A stretch of DNA of 64,000 bases, from assembly GCA_900119285.1 (NCBI GenBank), contig FPIT01000003.1:1-64000 (forward strand), in the 5' to 3' direction. A model generated the notes under the pieces. It was not told the origin of the DNA and ran no database searches. It saw only the letters and a list, made by a program, of their open reading frames with translations. Both the position numbers and the translations under genes were made by a program. This stretch comes from Prevotellaceae bacterium HUN156 (GTDB lineage: Bacteria > Bacteroidota > Bacteroidia > Bacteroidales > Bacteroidaceae). Below, piece by piece: positions 912-8,979 of this stretch. The stretch's first letter is position 1, and the number at the start of each line of letters is the position of its first letter.

Positions 912-1065
912 GGAGTTAGCGGGAGTTAATGGGAGTTAACAGGCTTGCAGCCTGTGAAGTTAACGGACGTATGTTCTGCGGTGGTATTATTCTCAGTTCT
1001 GCGTTTATACTATTGTCCGTTAACTCCATCGACGAAGTCGATTAACTCCCGCTAACTCCCATTAA
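912..1065. repeat. Nested inverted-repeat element, copy A
   Basis: The outer arms pair perfectly over 19 bp (912-930 with 1041-1059; GGAGTTAGCGGGAGTTAAT). Inside are a small hairpin AGGCTTGCAGCCT, an inner arm pair GTTAACGGAC / GTCCGTTAAC, and a terminal hairpin ATCGACGAAGTCGAT. A 38-nt core (985-1022) matches copy B (4274-4311) with a single difference. Copy A lies just beyond the 3' end of the M15 gene and copy B just upstream of the unknown gene at 3709-4125, so the pair brackets that four-gene run. Confidence 0.8.
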
Positions 1066-1093
1066 AAACAATGCTACCGCAGAAGATTGTATG

Positions 1094-1552
1094 TTAGCGG
1101 GCAGGGAAATTAGGTATTGCCATGTGGCGGTTACTTTTGCGGTCACGTCGGCAGGAGATGTGGAGCCATCGGGCACCAGTGCGACGGTATTCGAATAGCA
1201 CCTGGTCGAAGTCGGTATGCTCAACGATGAATTTATACCAGCGACGCCCTGTGTCCAGGTTGGGCAGGTGCAGGTCGGCAGCCTGTCCGTAGAGGTGCTG
1301 TGAGTCGCCTACCCCACGTACAGCCTCGTTGAGCAGCAATGAGCGGTATCCGCTATTGATGTGGATAGGTTGCTGGGCGTAGTCGCGTAGCGGTTGCAGC
1401 ACCTCTCTACAGAGGTTGCGCAGGTTGATTACTGCCTCCCAGTCTGGCCGGTTGTCTATCTTCAGTCGCTCGGCGGTCTGGCTGTCAACAAATTCTTTCA
1501 ACTGGAAGTTCTCTGATAACTTCATTTCTGGATTGTACATTGGTTTATTCAT
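1094..1552 (-). CDS. M15-family peptidoglycan peptidase (D-Ala-D-Ala carboxypeptidase-like)
   Basis: 152 residues. The zinc-binding pattern of M15 peptidases is present: SGYRSLLLNEAVRG, then SQHLYGQAADL (His and Asp ligands) and a downstream WLHIS His. The family cleaves D-Ala-containing cross-links of peptidoglycan. There is no signal peptide or lysozyme-type targeting domain, as in many phage-type endolysins and their domesticated relatives. The next gene upstream (DUF6371-like) ends 28 bp away on the same strand, so the two are probably co-transcribed. In this setting it looks like part of an accessory or prophage-derived cassette rather than normal cell-wall turnover; that is inference. 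Confidence 0.85.
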   Translation of the reverse strand: MNKPMYNPEMKLSENFQLKEFVDSQTAERLKIDNRPDWEAVINLRNLCREVLQPLRDYAQQPIHINSGYRSLLLNEAVRGVGDSQHLYGQAADLHLPNLDTGRRWYKFIVEHTDFDQVLFEYRRTGARWLHISCRRDRKSNRHMAIPNFPAR

Positions 1553-1580
1553 GATGATTTTAAATTATAAGAAGGGATTA

Positions 1581-2330
1581 TTAGAAAATAAAATCTATGA
1601 GGTCTATCTTCCGCTCTTTCTGTTCCTTCGTGGCTCGACGCTCCAGCAGTGAGCTGACGGTGATGTCAAGACCATACTGTCGGTGGGCATCCTGTGCCAC
1701 GGAGTACCAGCGGTTGTAGGCCGTCTGGTCAGTGTCGGTATCAGGGAAGAGCACGATACGATGGTGGCGCAATGGAAACAGCTTCTGCGGTGTCAGCTCA
1801 GTCAGTCCACCGGCTGCCAGCCATAGGTATTGTGGGTAATGTGCTGACAGAATCACTGCCGTCTTCTCCGCCTCCACCACAGCAATGGCTGACGGCTCAT
1901 CTTTCATTTTTAATTTTTCATTTTTAATCTTCACCAAGTGTGTGCCGAACAGACAGTGATGCGAGGCTGGCATCCATTCCTCCATATCGGGGAAGCGCTG
2001 TAGAAACTGGCGCTTCAGCAGGTTTGAGACCCATTGCGGATGGCGGTGGTGGTCGCGGTGGCAGTCGGAACGATAGTACATAATCTTGCCGTCGTAGGTC
2101 TGTCCTAGCGTGTCTATCTGCCAGAAGATGACGCCACCATTGCGTGAGCATCCTAGTCGATAGCGGCGTACGGCCTGCTGCATCTGCTCTTCGGTCATAT
2201 AGCCGTTGGCTACTACGGCCCTGCAGAAGTCGCTGTTGCAGGACTGTCGCTGCTGCCACATCGGAGCCTCTAGTCTTCTATGCTCTCTAATGCTGCTGAT
2301 AGATGATGAAAGAATATCGTTCAGTTTCAT
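1581..2330 (-). CDS. DUF6371-like protein with a TOPRIM-like domain
   Basis: 249 residues. The N-terminal half has basic, primase-accessory-like sequence (VRRYRLGCSRNGGVIFWQID). The C-terminal half looks TOPRIM-like, with an acidic entry AIAVVEAEKTAVI and the motif HRIVLFPDTDTD. Such proteins in Bacteroidales often sit beside RepA-type ATPases on mobile elements, in line with the neighbour at 2425-3522. I assign DUF6371 from memory of the family and cannot confirm it here. Residues encoded by 1902-1934 (KIKNEKLKMK) come from a TTTTTAATTTTTCA-type minirepeat inserted in frame just before the TOPRIM-like core. An IR hairpin (2360-2425) fills the gap to the upstream gene. Confidence 0.65.
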   Translation of the reverse strand: MKLNDILSSSISSIREHRRLEAPMWQQRQSCNSDFCRAVVANGYMTEEQMQQAVRRYRLGCSRNGGVIFWQIDTLGQTYDGKIMYYRSDCHRDHHRHPQWVSNLLKRQFLQRFPDMEEWMPASHHCLFGTHLVKIKNEKLKMKDEPSAIAVVEAEKTAVILSAHYPQYLWLAAGGLTELTPQKLFPLRHHRIVLFPDTDTDQTAYNRWYSVAQDAHRQYGLDITVSSLLERRATKEQKERKIDLIDFIF

Positions 2331-2359
2331 TGTTTCTTTGGAATTTTGCTTCCCTGAGG

Positions 2360-2425
2360 AAACCCACCTCCTATATTGGAGTTCCCCCTAAAGGGGAACG
2401 GAAATATAGGAGGGATGTGGGGTTT
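2360..2425. repeat. Nested hairpin between the RepA-like and DUF6371-like genes
   Basis: Outer arms AAACCCAC...CCTATATT and AATATAGG...GTGGGGTTT enclose an inner hairpin GTTCCCCCTAAAGGGGAAC. It fills nearly all of the 94-nt gap and abuts the stop codon of the upstream RepA-like gene. It could modulate read-through or mRNA stability. There is no T-run, so it is not a classic terminator. Confidence 0.6.
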
Positions 2426-3522
2426 CAGAAGGGCGCCATTGCATAGATAACATGTCCTGTATGATCACAGGACTTCAGGATGATACGATCGCTGACGGCC
2501 TGCTCCAGCAGCTTGTTGTAGAACTTCCAGGAGCTGATGCTGGCTTGTTTACACACCTGCGTCTTCAACTCGCTACCGCTAATTTGTTCACGACCAGCTA
2601 TCACATCGTTCATCAGCCTTCGCAAGTCGATATGCCATGAGCCGTCATCCTCATGGATAATATATTCTTGGTTCAGGCTGGGAAATGATTCACGCCCGTC
2701 ACTACTGCTCTCTACGGGCACGCCTGTCAGTCGGGGCAGTCCCTCTGGGTCCACCTCGAAATACAGCGTCTGCTCAATGTCGTACTTACGTGTCAGCGTC
2801 TGTTCTACCTTGAAGATACGTTGCGGCATCAGTTTCTCGCAGGCATACACCTCGAAGGCCTTGTTCATCAATTCCGTACCTATCCAGCCTCGGAGGTTAT
2901 GGTCCTCCGAGCCCTTATTCTGGTGCAGAATGCAGACTATGCAGCACTTTTTGTTATCTGCCAGATGCATCAACTCTTCCATCACCTCCTGCGCCAGGAC
3001 ACCGTCATTGATGTCGTTTACCAGGTCGCGGATGCCATCAACGATTACCAAGTCAGGACCATAGTGTGACACTGCCTCCAGCAATAGCTGACGACGGTCT
3101 TTCCACGATACGCTGCGCACATTGAATACATCAATGCCCTGCAGATTGTCGTCCGTCATCACTCGGATACGGTTTTTCAGAATATCCTGCGTCGATTCGT
3201 CCGACTGCTCCGTGTCATACCACAGGATTTTCAGTGGTGTCTCGCTGCTACGATGGAAACTCAACACGTCACGAATCACACAACATGCTATCAGCATACT
3301 GGTGACAAACGTCTTGCCCGACTTCGCCTTACCCGTTACCGCCACTAATTCACGACGTGGAAAGCACGGTCTTCCAAACAGTTGGAATAGGAAGTCCATC
3401 TTCGGCAGTTGTTTGTCGGCCGTAATGCGGCAATCATCCAATCTCAGCAAGGTTGGCGTTAGCGAGGGAGCTGTCGTCTCTTGAGCCAGTTGCTCCCCCG
3501 TTTTCTCAATATTGTCGTTCAT
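2425..3522 (-). CDS. RepA-type AAA ATPase (P-loop, replicative-helicase-like)
   Basis: 365 residues. Walker A is seen as VTGKAKSGKTF near residues 62-72 and Walker B as DLVIVDGIRDL near 157-167. Further on is the sensor-like stretch CIVCILHQNKGSEDHNLRG. This layout matches RepA/AAA_25-type hexameric ATPases encoded by plasmids, phages and integrative elements. The C-terminal 100 residues (from about 265) look like a winged-helix region (SGSELKTQVCKQASISSWKFY). A TACCTTTA box at 3587-3580 is a plausible promoter. The upstream neighbour (3709-4125) is co-directional, 186 bp away. It probably acts in replication or maintenance of the element bracketed by the nested repeats. Confidence 0.75.
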   Translation of the reverse strand: MNDNIEKTGEQLAQETTAPSLTPTLLRLDDCRITADKQLPKMDFLFQLFGRPCFPRRELVAVTGKAKSGKTFVTSMLIACCVIRDVLSFHRSSETPLKILWYDTEQSDESTQDILKNRIRVMTDDNLQGIDVFNVRSVSWKDRRQLLLEAVSHYGPDLVIVDGIRDLVNDINDGVLAQEVMEELMHLADNKKCCIVCILHQNKGSEDHNLRGWIGTELMNKAFEVYACEKLMPQRIFKVEQTLTRKYDIEQTLYFEVDPEGLPRLTGVPVESSSDGRESFPSLNQEYIIHEDDGSWHIDLRRLMNDVIAGREQISGSELKTQVCKQASISSWKFYNKLLEQAVSDRIILKSCDHTGHVIYAMAPF

Positions 3523-3579
3523 TTTTACATTACTTTACGTTATTAGTTTTTTATCAATTAAATGCCGGCTTTCATACTG

Positions 3580-3587
3580 TAAAGGTA
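3580..3587 (-). promoter_or_regulatory. Probable -7 box TACCTTTA for the RepA-like gene
   Basis: The minus strand reads AGTACCTTTACAG, one base from TAnnTTTG. It lies 58-65 nt upstream of the ATG at 3522. Confidence 0.4.
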
Positions 3588-3653
3588 CTAAAAATCAGGG
3601 GGATAGGCAATAAAGAAGTAAAGTTCATGTCCCCATAAGCATAGATGCGGAAT

Positions 3654-3689
3654 TCTCTGAAACGCCCTGTATAAAGGCGTTTCCGAGAG
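3654..3689. repeat. Hairpin downstream of the unknown gene 3709-4125
   Basis: Arms TCTCTGAAACGCC (3654-3666) and GGCGTTTCCGAGA (3676-3688) pair with one mismatch over a 9-nt loop. No T-run follows on the minus strand. The 11-mer TCATGTCCCCA occurs on both sides (3626-3636 and 3710-3720), the second overlapping the stop codon of 3709-4125. That suggests a small local duplication. Confidence 0.5.
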
Positions 3690-3708
3690 ATTTGTCCAAG
3701 AGATAAAA

Positions 3709-4125
3709 TCATGTCCCCACATTTTTCAATCGCTGCAAAGCCTTCTTGATACTTTCTGTCGTGCCTAAATTAGAATGCTCTGCCAGATAGCGGCAGAGCT
3801 GGAGGGTGCTGACATTGAAGACAGGAGGTGTCTGAGCCAATGCAGTGGCAAGGGCGCGGAATACGTAATACTTAAGATGGGGAGGAAATAAGAAGAAGGT
3901 AGTTTTTCGTGGATTTAGGTTATCGGTTGTTCGTTTCTGCCATTCAGCTATCATCAACTGGTAATAGGCGAACTGTTGCAGGTTGACCAGTTTGTAGAGT
4001 GGTGTCTCGTTGTCCCACGACGGTTTTCGTCTTTTCTGGTGCTGCGCTGTTAGTTCTCGCTTGCGTTGTCGCAGCTGATTGATTACTGTTTGGTGTTCAC
4101 AAATCAGGAGGTCAATCTGTGCCAC
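3709..4125 (-). CDS. Unknown protein, first gene of the bracketed cassette
   Basis: About 138 residues if translation starts at the GTG at 4125. The N-terminal third is a charged helix (INQLRQRKRELTAQHQKRR); the rest is mixed with no motif I recognise (FLFPPHLKYYVFRALATALA). The reading frame stays open upstream for at least 19 codons of plausible coding sequence (ETDEKNDKALEAWQQEV). The nearest ATGs (4175-4173 and 4169-4167) are in another frame, separated by a run of seven A on the sense strand. So the true N-terminus may be disrupted by a poly-A slip, or begin at the GTG. It sits at the upstream end of the M15/TOPRIM/RepA run, 75 bp from nested repeat copy B. Confidence 0.5.
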   Translation of the reverse strand: MAQIDLLICEHQTVINQLRQRKRELTAQHQKRRKPSWDNETPLYKLVNLQQFAYYQLMIAEWQKRTTDNLNPRKTTFFLFPPHLKYYVFRALATALAQTPPVFNVSTLQLCRYLAEHSNLGTTESIKKALQRLKNVGT

Positions 4126-4200
4126 CTCCTGCTGCCAGGCTTCCAGAGCCTTGTCGTTTTTTTCATCTGTTTCATTGTTTTTGTTTTTTTTATTAAGTTT

Positions 4201-4393
4201 GGAGTTAGCGGGAGTTATATGGAGTTAACAGGCTTTCAGCCTGTGGAGTTAACGGACGAATGTTCAGTGGCAGTATTATTCTCAGTTCTGCGTTTGTACT
4301 ATTGTCCGTTATTGCGTGCCACACTCATACCTTTAGGTGTGAGAACTCCACGAGCCATCGGCTCGTTAACTCCCACTAACTCCCATTAACTCC
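4201..4393. repeat. Nested inverted-repeat element, copy B
   Basis: Same architecture and orientation as copy A (912-1065). The outer arms are built from GGAGTTA / TAACTCC units (4201-4229 with 4365-4393), an inner hairpin AGGCTTTCAGCCT follows, and a 38-nt core (4274-4311) is almost identical to copy A. The right side differs: it carries two extra hairpins, CTCATACCTTTAGGTGTGAG and CGAGCCATCGGCTCG. The conserved skeleton with variable hairpin inserts suggests that secondary structure is what is maintained. Confidence 0.8.
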
Positions 4394-4405
4394 TGATAAT
4401 TAGCC

Positions 4406-4451
4406 ATAAAAAAGAGGGATGCAGAGCGCATTACACAACTCTACATCCCCC
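4406..4451 (-). terminator. Rho-independent terminator of secreted-protein module 1
   Basis: The stem GGGATGCAGAG (4416-4426) pairs with CTCTACATCCC (4439-4449) with one mismatch. Read on the minus strand it is followed by CTCTTTTTT. It lies directly after the small acidic gene (stop at 4471). The same hairpin recurs at 13543-13586 after module 3. Confidence 0.75.
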
Positions 4452-4470
4452 GAAAATAGTAATTGTTTAA

Positions 4471-4626
4471 TTATAGGTCATCGTCGCTATCGTCGAAGCC
4501 ACCATCTACAAGGCCTAAGCCAGCGGAATTGCCTGGAGCAAGACTGTTTACCTGACTGGCAGCCAGCATGCCCTGTGTCTCTACTTCAATGACACATAAC
4601 TCTGGATTGATATATTCTTTTTTCAT
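4471..4626 (-). CDS. Small acidic MKKEY protein, module 1
   Basis: 51 residues, from the ATG at 4626 to TAA at 4471-4473. It begins MKKEYINPELCVIEVETQ, passes through MLAAS, and ends with an acidic tail GGFDDSDDDL. It follows the 1282-residue secreted protein by 40 bp and precedes a terminator, so it is the 3' gene of a two-gene unit. Three more copies of the arrangement lie at 8818-8979, 13649-13834 and 23215-23373. The shared pattern is M-K-K-x-Y-x-x-P, a hydrophobic/acidic stretch, (M/I)-L-x-x-S, then a D/E-rich tail. There is no signal peptide or membrane segment. Function is unknown; a leader-like N-terminus with a variable acidic core is one reading. Confidence 0.7.
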   Translation of the reverse strand: MKKEYINPELCVIEVETQGMLAASQVNSLAPGNSAGLGLVDGGFDDSDDDL

Positions 4627-8817: not shown

Positions 8818-8979
8818 TTACCAGACATCCTCAACTTCTTCGATATCATCAGTAGGATCATCAAACAGGTCGATGGGTGTGTCGTCTAAACCCATGACAT
8901 CGGTGAGACTGTTGCAGAGCATCTGCGTCTGTTGCATCTTCACCACCTGTATTTCAGGATTGATATATTCTTTTTTCAT
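8818..8979 (-). CDS. Small acidic MKKEY protein, module 2
   Basis: 53 residues, ATG at 8979 to TAA at 8818-8820. It begins MKKEYINPEIQVVKMQQ, contains QMLCNS, and continues into an acidic tail with DLFDDPTDD and a final EEVEDVW. The first nine residues match the module 1 copy in all but the last. It lies 56 bp downstream of the large secreted protein and just before a strong terminator. The position and the conserved N-terminus across four copies support a real gene. Function is unknown. Confidence 0.7.
   Translation of the reverse strand: MKKEYINPEIQVVKMQQTQMLCNSLTDVMGLDDTPIDLFDDPTDDIEEVEDVW

Follow-up and report, generated by a model that had tools for sequence, protein, structure and literature searches.

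The first 64,000 nucleotides of contig FPIT01000003.1 of Prevotellaceae bacterium HUN156 (assembly GCA_900119285.1), the window of this analysis, contain two similar nested inverted repeats, copy A (912–1065) and copy B (4201–4393), that lie in the same orientation on both sides of four genes. This layout raises the question of whether the two copies delimit the genes, as the ends of a mobile unit would, or belong to a repeat family with its own history. A and B are most probably (probability about 0.7) two copies of a dispersed, non-autonomous palindromic element of the MITE/REPIN-like type, whose presence beside the cassette is incidental.

Architecture of copies A and B

The positions and common orientation of the two copies, their arms, the AGGCT..AGCCT hairpin and the 38-nt core with a single mismatch, all described in the initial annotation, were recovered by sequence comparison, as was the difference between their right hairpins. 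A and B match at 90% over the first 111 nt, and the core occupies 985–1022 in A and 4274–4311 in B; a 22-nt stretch of it occurs twice in the window and in 0 of 100 shuffles. A search for the core in other genomes, which the annotation had proposed, gave only chance matches in GTDB contigs and none in viral contigs. The exact core was found only in A, B and a decayed duplicate of the cassette (L045, see below), which makes A and B close relatives, probably connected by local duplication or conversion.

Each copy is a nested palindrome, and both fold to the same cloverleaf. The outer stem consists of 10-nt units (GGAGTTANNN on the left, NNNTAACTCC on the right), with arms of 10-nt periodicity, and encloses a left hairpin (7 bp, 3-nt loop), a right hairpin and, between these two, a central stem-loop (GRAGTTAACGGAC...GTCCGTTAACTCC) whose core varies. 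In A, the left arm (912–938; three 10-nt GGAGTTANNN units) pairs with 1041–1059 and is followed by the left hairpin (939–955; ACAGGCT-TGC-AGCCTGT) and the central stem-loop (956–1027; GAAGTTAACGGAC...GTCCGTTAACTCC), both placed by fold and covariation, and then by the right hairpin (1028–1042; ATCGAC-GAA-GTCGAT), placed by fold, and the right arm (1043–1065; TAACTCCNNN units). The left hairpin (4228–4244; ACAGGCT-TTC-AGCCTGT) and right hairpin (4350–4366; ACGAGCC-ATC-GGCTCGT) of B are likewise placed by fold, and its right arm (4367–4393) has three TAACTCCNNN units; B carries one hairpin more than A (4324–4343; CTCATACC-TTTA-GGTGTGAG), a module that is also present in L033 and L045. Folded as RNA on the strand of the neighbouring genes, A reaches -64.6 kcal/mol (z -9.4) and B -83.3 kcal/mol (z -8.7), relative to shuffles.

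Just beyond the right arm of A, positions 1067–1087 hold an inverted copy of A's core motif (971–991; 81% complementary), and similar flanks occur at two other loci (L041, L037), so A may extend past its right arm. Stop codons are present in all six reading frames inside A and inside B; the 10-nt unit contains TAA, and three arm units suffice for stops in all frames of one strand. Further palindromes of the CCCCACCTCC type lie in gaps nearby (439–523 and 2367–2413), and four iteron-like 27-nt repeats with 22-nt spacing (624–716) separate the HU gene from a small ORF.

The gene cassette between the copies

The four genes that the initial annotation placed between the copies are present, all on the minus strand and outside the element. 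They encode a peptidase M15 (1094–1552; PF08291, Peptidase_M15_3; phrog_894), a DUF6371 protein (1581–2330; Pfam), a DnaB/RepA-like AAA_25 ATPase (2425–3522; Pfam) and an unknown protein with no Pfam match, for which a GTG start is assumed (3709–4125). By PHROG comparison, the M15 protein is similar to phage endolysins and the AAA_25 protein to phage helicases; relatives of AAA_25 are found on Bacteroidales plasmids and phages at 30–38% identity. Defence-system models gave 0 matches for five cassette proteins. Two small peptides sharing MKKEYINPE are encoded beside B (4471–4626) and near a large adhesin-like gene (8818–8979), with matching relatives in L040 and L041.

In one reading offered by the annotation, the four genes form a composite mobile unit bounded by A and B; the shared orientation, and a core found elsewhere only in L045, are consistent with it. 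However, the cassette occurs without such ends. AAA_25 loci were found in 18 other genomes of the genus (18 loci), adjoined by DUF6371 in 17 and by HU in 13, and none of the 18 has an element arm pair in the 3–10 kb read per locus. The cassette thus does not require the element, and M15-DUF6371-AAA_25-HU is a separate conserved gene set, independent of the element. The decayed duplicate L045, which lies at the end of contig C13, corresponds to window positions 2320–4472 with two internal deletions; it includes B and breaks at about 4472, approximately 80 bp past B, and the duplication therefore ran on beyond the element. In this second copy of the cassette (L045:16874–17578), the AAA_25 gene is reduced to its two ends. 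Since the remaining HUN156 copies also adjoin unrelated genes, a composite transposon ending in A and B was rejected, and the composite reading is largely refuted and very improbable. What stands of the annotation's interpretation is the structured elements themselves, with co-varying hairpins and empty sites; what falls is their role as bounds of the cassette, and the position of A and B on its two sides looks like chance.

Dispersal of the family and its likely route

With copy A as query, BLAST returns 29 matches in HUN156, spread over many contigs, and the arm motif matches 40 times. In addition to A and B, this genome has about 17 element sites, most of them between unrelated genes, and the element is non-coding and about 135–195 nt long. 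Fourteen stretches around copies were read. The neighbouring genes in them, judged from translations without a family search, include a tadA-nrdG-like pair (L040), proC next to an HTH gene (L042) and, at L046, a gene resembling peptidyl-prolyl isomerases. Five copies adjoin small 'smalltalk' genes, with an HU gene also at two of the five. Cassette proteins have no match near the other copies, except at L045 and, for HU alone, at these two smalltalk/HU sites. The ends of contigs C12, C13, C14 and C17 fall at HU/smalltalk/element duplicates; because the assembly breaks there, the number of repeats from this region may be an underestimate.

The family is patchily distributed. Its arm pattern occurs in 97 of 348 genomes of the genus, with up to 188 matches in one, and a reversed control pattern gives no or almost no matches in the positive genomes of the genus. 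In the order the arm pattern occurs in 19 of 393 genomes (11 genera), and a few order genomes match the control too. No published description of this repeat was found in the literature searched, and the family seems to have been undescribed so far. The usual position is after a stop codon and before the next gene. Empty sites, which the initial annotation had suggested looking for, do exist: the proC-XRE gap measures 174 nt in HUN156, where it holds the element, and has the element in none of 29 other species (0/29). Many of these gaps are bare (2–51 nt), often they carry a 7-nt microsatellite (including GTTAAGA), and two have other palindromes.

Transposition is directly apparent in another species (genome G180), in which the copies share a 167-nt unit with the ends CCTGAATTATTCAT / CTTATATTATTCACG as terminal inverted repeats. 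Among the 14 copies with both ends, 6 have identical 4-nt flanks and 5 have flanks that agree at three of four positions; the mean match is 3.14, versus 2.04 for cross pairs (0/50000 permutations, p<2e-5), and the signal is confined to the exact element end. The target TTTTCTAGAAAA is found uninterrupted 9 times. Several copies sit at the centre of AAATTTTCTAGAAAATTT, a repeat that is also found uninterrupted. The matched 4-bp flanks, together with the uninterrupted occurrence of this repeat, show that the G180 copies arose by transposition with target duplication. The target YTAR is known from the IS5 group; an enzyme of that kind was looked for and not found. A second palindromic repeat, CGCGATTAAGCGAGAGC..GCCGAGCGTGAGCGGATT, is inserted in or beside element cores at four G180 loci (L165, L187, L194, L211), and a relative of it is present in the HUN156 locus L041.

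Several findings weigh against the preferred explanation of A and B. The target duplications sought by the annotation were found in the G180 subfamily but not in HUN156, in which 12 copies, whose outer ends are ill defined, showed no more direct repeats than expected by chance (p 0.22). Neither was an autonomous partner found: in the G180 draft (85% complete), ends are paired only about 150–250 bp apart. The PF01609 transposase is absent from G000 and G180, and among 14 genomes searched, PF01609 genes have flanking arms at 0 of 17 loci, on which ground this enzyme was rejected as partner. A separate IS lies about 470 bp from the element at L254. The ends of the HUN156 elements consist of the arms only; the G180 subfamily has its own outer ends, and transposition there may therefore not describe all subfamilies.

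Element growth in place, by short-repeat slippage and palindrome-forming replication errors with no transposition, would fit the frequent 7-nt microsatellites in orthologous gaps (GTTAAGA among them), the merging of 7-mer and 10-mer GGAGT arrays in G180, and the 10-nt arm-like arrays without a partner arm, which pure transposition leaves unexplained. It is nevertheless quite unlikely as the origin of the family, given that near-identical 138-nt copies occur at unrelated sites and have both ends of their own and target duplications.

A REPIN-type origin, with mobilization of the element by a RAYT (Y1/HUH transposase) via single-stranded hairpins, would suit a palindromic, intergenic element of many copies, and HUN156 has two Y1_Tnp genes. 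There is also a precedent in Bacteroidetes RAYT subclass 2.6, for which 'atypical secondary structures' are copied elsewhere in the genome (PMC6006769). However, the element flanks neither of the two HUN156 RAYT genes (0/2), and among 23 Y1 genes in 16 genomes (2 in HUN156 and 21 in 15 relatives), just one has an element within 1.5 kb, on one side and at 700 bp. A cognate RAYT was thus rejected. Two genomes with elements (G058 and G202, 99% complete) have no Y1_Tnp match, and the target duplications seen in G180 point instead to a DDE enzyme, which leaves a RAYT origin decidedly improbable. One HUN156 RAYT-like gene is flanked by GGTTCCTGACACA repeats of its own (L031:1001–1060).

The preferred reading of A and B as copies of a dispersed element would then involve MITE-like spread, most likely through a transposase acting in trans to insert the element into short intergenic gaps. 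Such transposition is backed by the 4-bp target duplications in the one related species, and A and B may have arrived by the same route as the G180 copies. Comparison of copies suggests that slippage of the 10-nt unit alters arm length and that entire hairpins are exchanged without loss of pairing. The two cassette gaps would simply have happened to receive copies, one of which was perhaps derived locally from the other.

Fold conservation, possible function and relation to known systems

The covariation check suggested in the annotation gave a signal across species. Six species contributed 14 copies to it; their left hairpin is 95% paired, 6 of its 7 pairs show changes on both sides, and the 19 pairs tested contain 26 double-change cells versus 8.2 in shuffled data (0/500 shuffles as high). 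Hairpins are replaced as blocks, so the independent covariation events are fewer than these cells, and within G180 there is no excess. Rfam 15 at gathering score has no match in the window, and a known RNA family was rejected on that basis.

Selection could keep the cloverleaf as a functional RNA within operon mRNA, where it would separate or stabilize parts of the transcript, an account that is compatible with a mobile origin. The strong predicted fold of A and B and the covariation across six species agree with it. So does the gene setting: 43 of 60 classifiable copies in two genomes lie between co-directional genes, 14 between convergent and 3 between divergent ones, versus 129/37/37 for neighbouring HUN156 gene pairs, with genes taken as simple open reading frames. 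However, orthologous sites are not conserved (proC-XRE), block-swapped hairpins represent few independent events, G180 shows no covariation excess and the window no Rfam match, and avoidance of promoters is equally expected from selection against harmful insertions. Such a role is possible but rather doubtful.

A more tentative and unlikely extension is that this Bacteroidales-wide cloverleaf family, with a GRAGTTA outer stem at the 10-nt helical turn, is a candidate recognition platform for a mobilizing or RNA-binding protein, and that it spreads through gaps between co-transcribed genes, swaps hairpins while keeping its three-branched fold, and resets operon expression. The conserved 7-mer at 10-nt spacing in several families would point to one protein to look for. 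If the family is as proposed here, dozens of unannotated structured repeats lie between operon genes in many genomes of an abundant gut genus; they would break assemblies, make unrelated neighbouring genes resemble bounded islands, and possibly alter operon expression. The bracketed cassette itself is ordinary; what deserves to be retained is the element family.

Among known systems, the GTAG/CGTC-tagged palindromic repeats (PMC3733652) are likewise short palindromes of many genomes; however, they are 20–40 bp single hairpins with an unpaired tag, and neither tag stands beside the A or B hairpins. REPINs and REP-RAYT systems (PMC3116915) share with this family an intergenic position, palindromy, many copies and compensatory hairpin changes, whereas this family is three-branched, shows no RAYT association, and has a 4-bp target duplication in one subfamily. 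The family has several features of MITEs: it is short, non-coding, multi-copy and dispersed, with inverted ends and target duplication in the G180 subfamily. Parallels in the same order are BrickBuilt and MITE464/PgRS of Porphyromonas gingivalis (PMC4596501), which are also non-coding and dispersed and have inverted ends and internal tandem repeats; as in this family, some of their copies carry target duplications. In BrickBuilt, the internal repeats are 23 nt long and the ends are IS5-like (GAGACCTTTGCA), whereas in the present family a 10-nt unit builds both arms of a cloverleaf with exchangeable hairpins.
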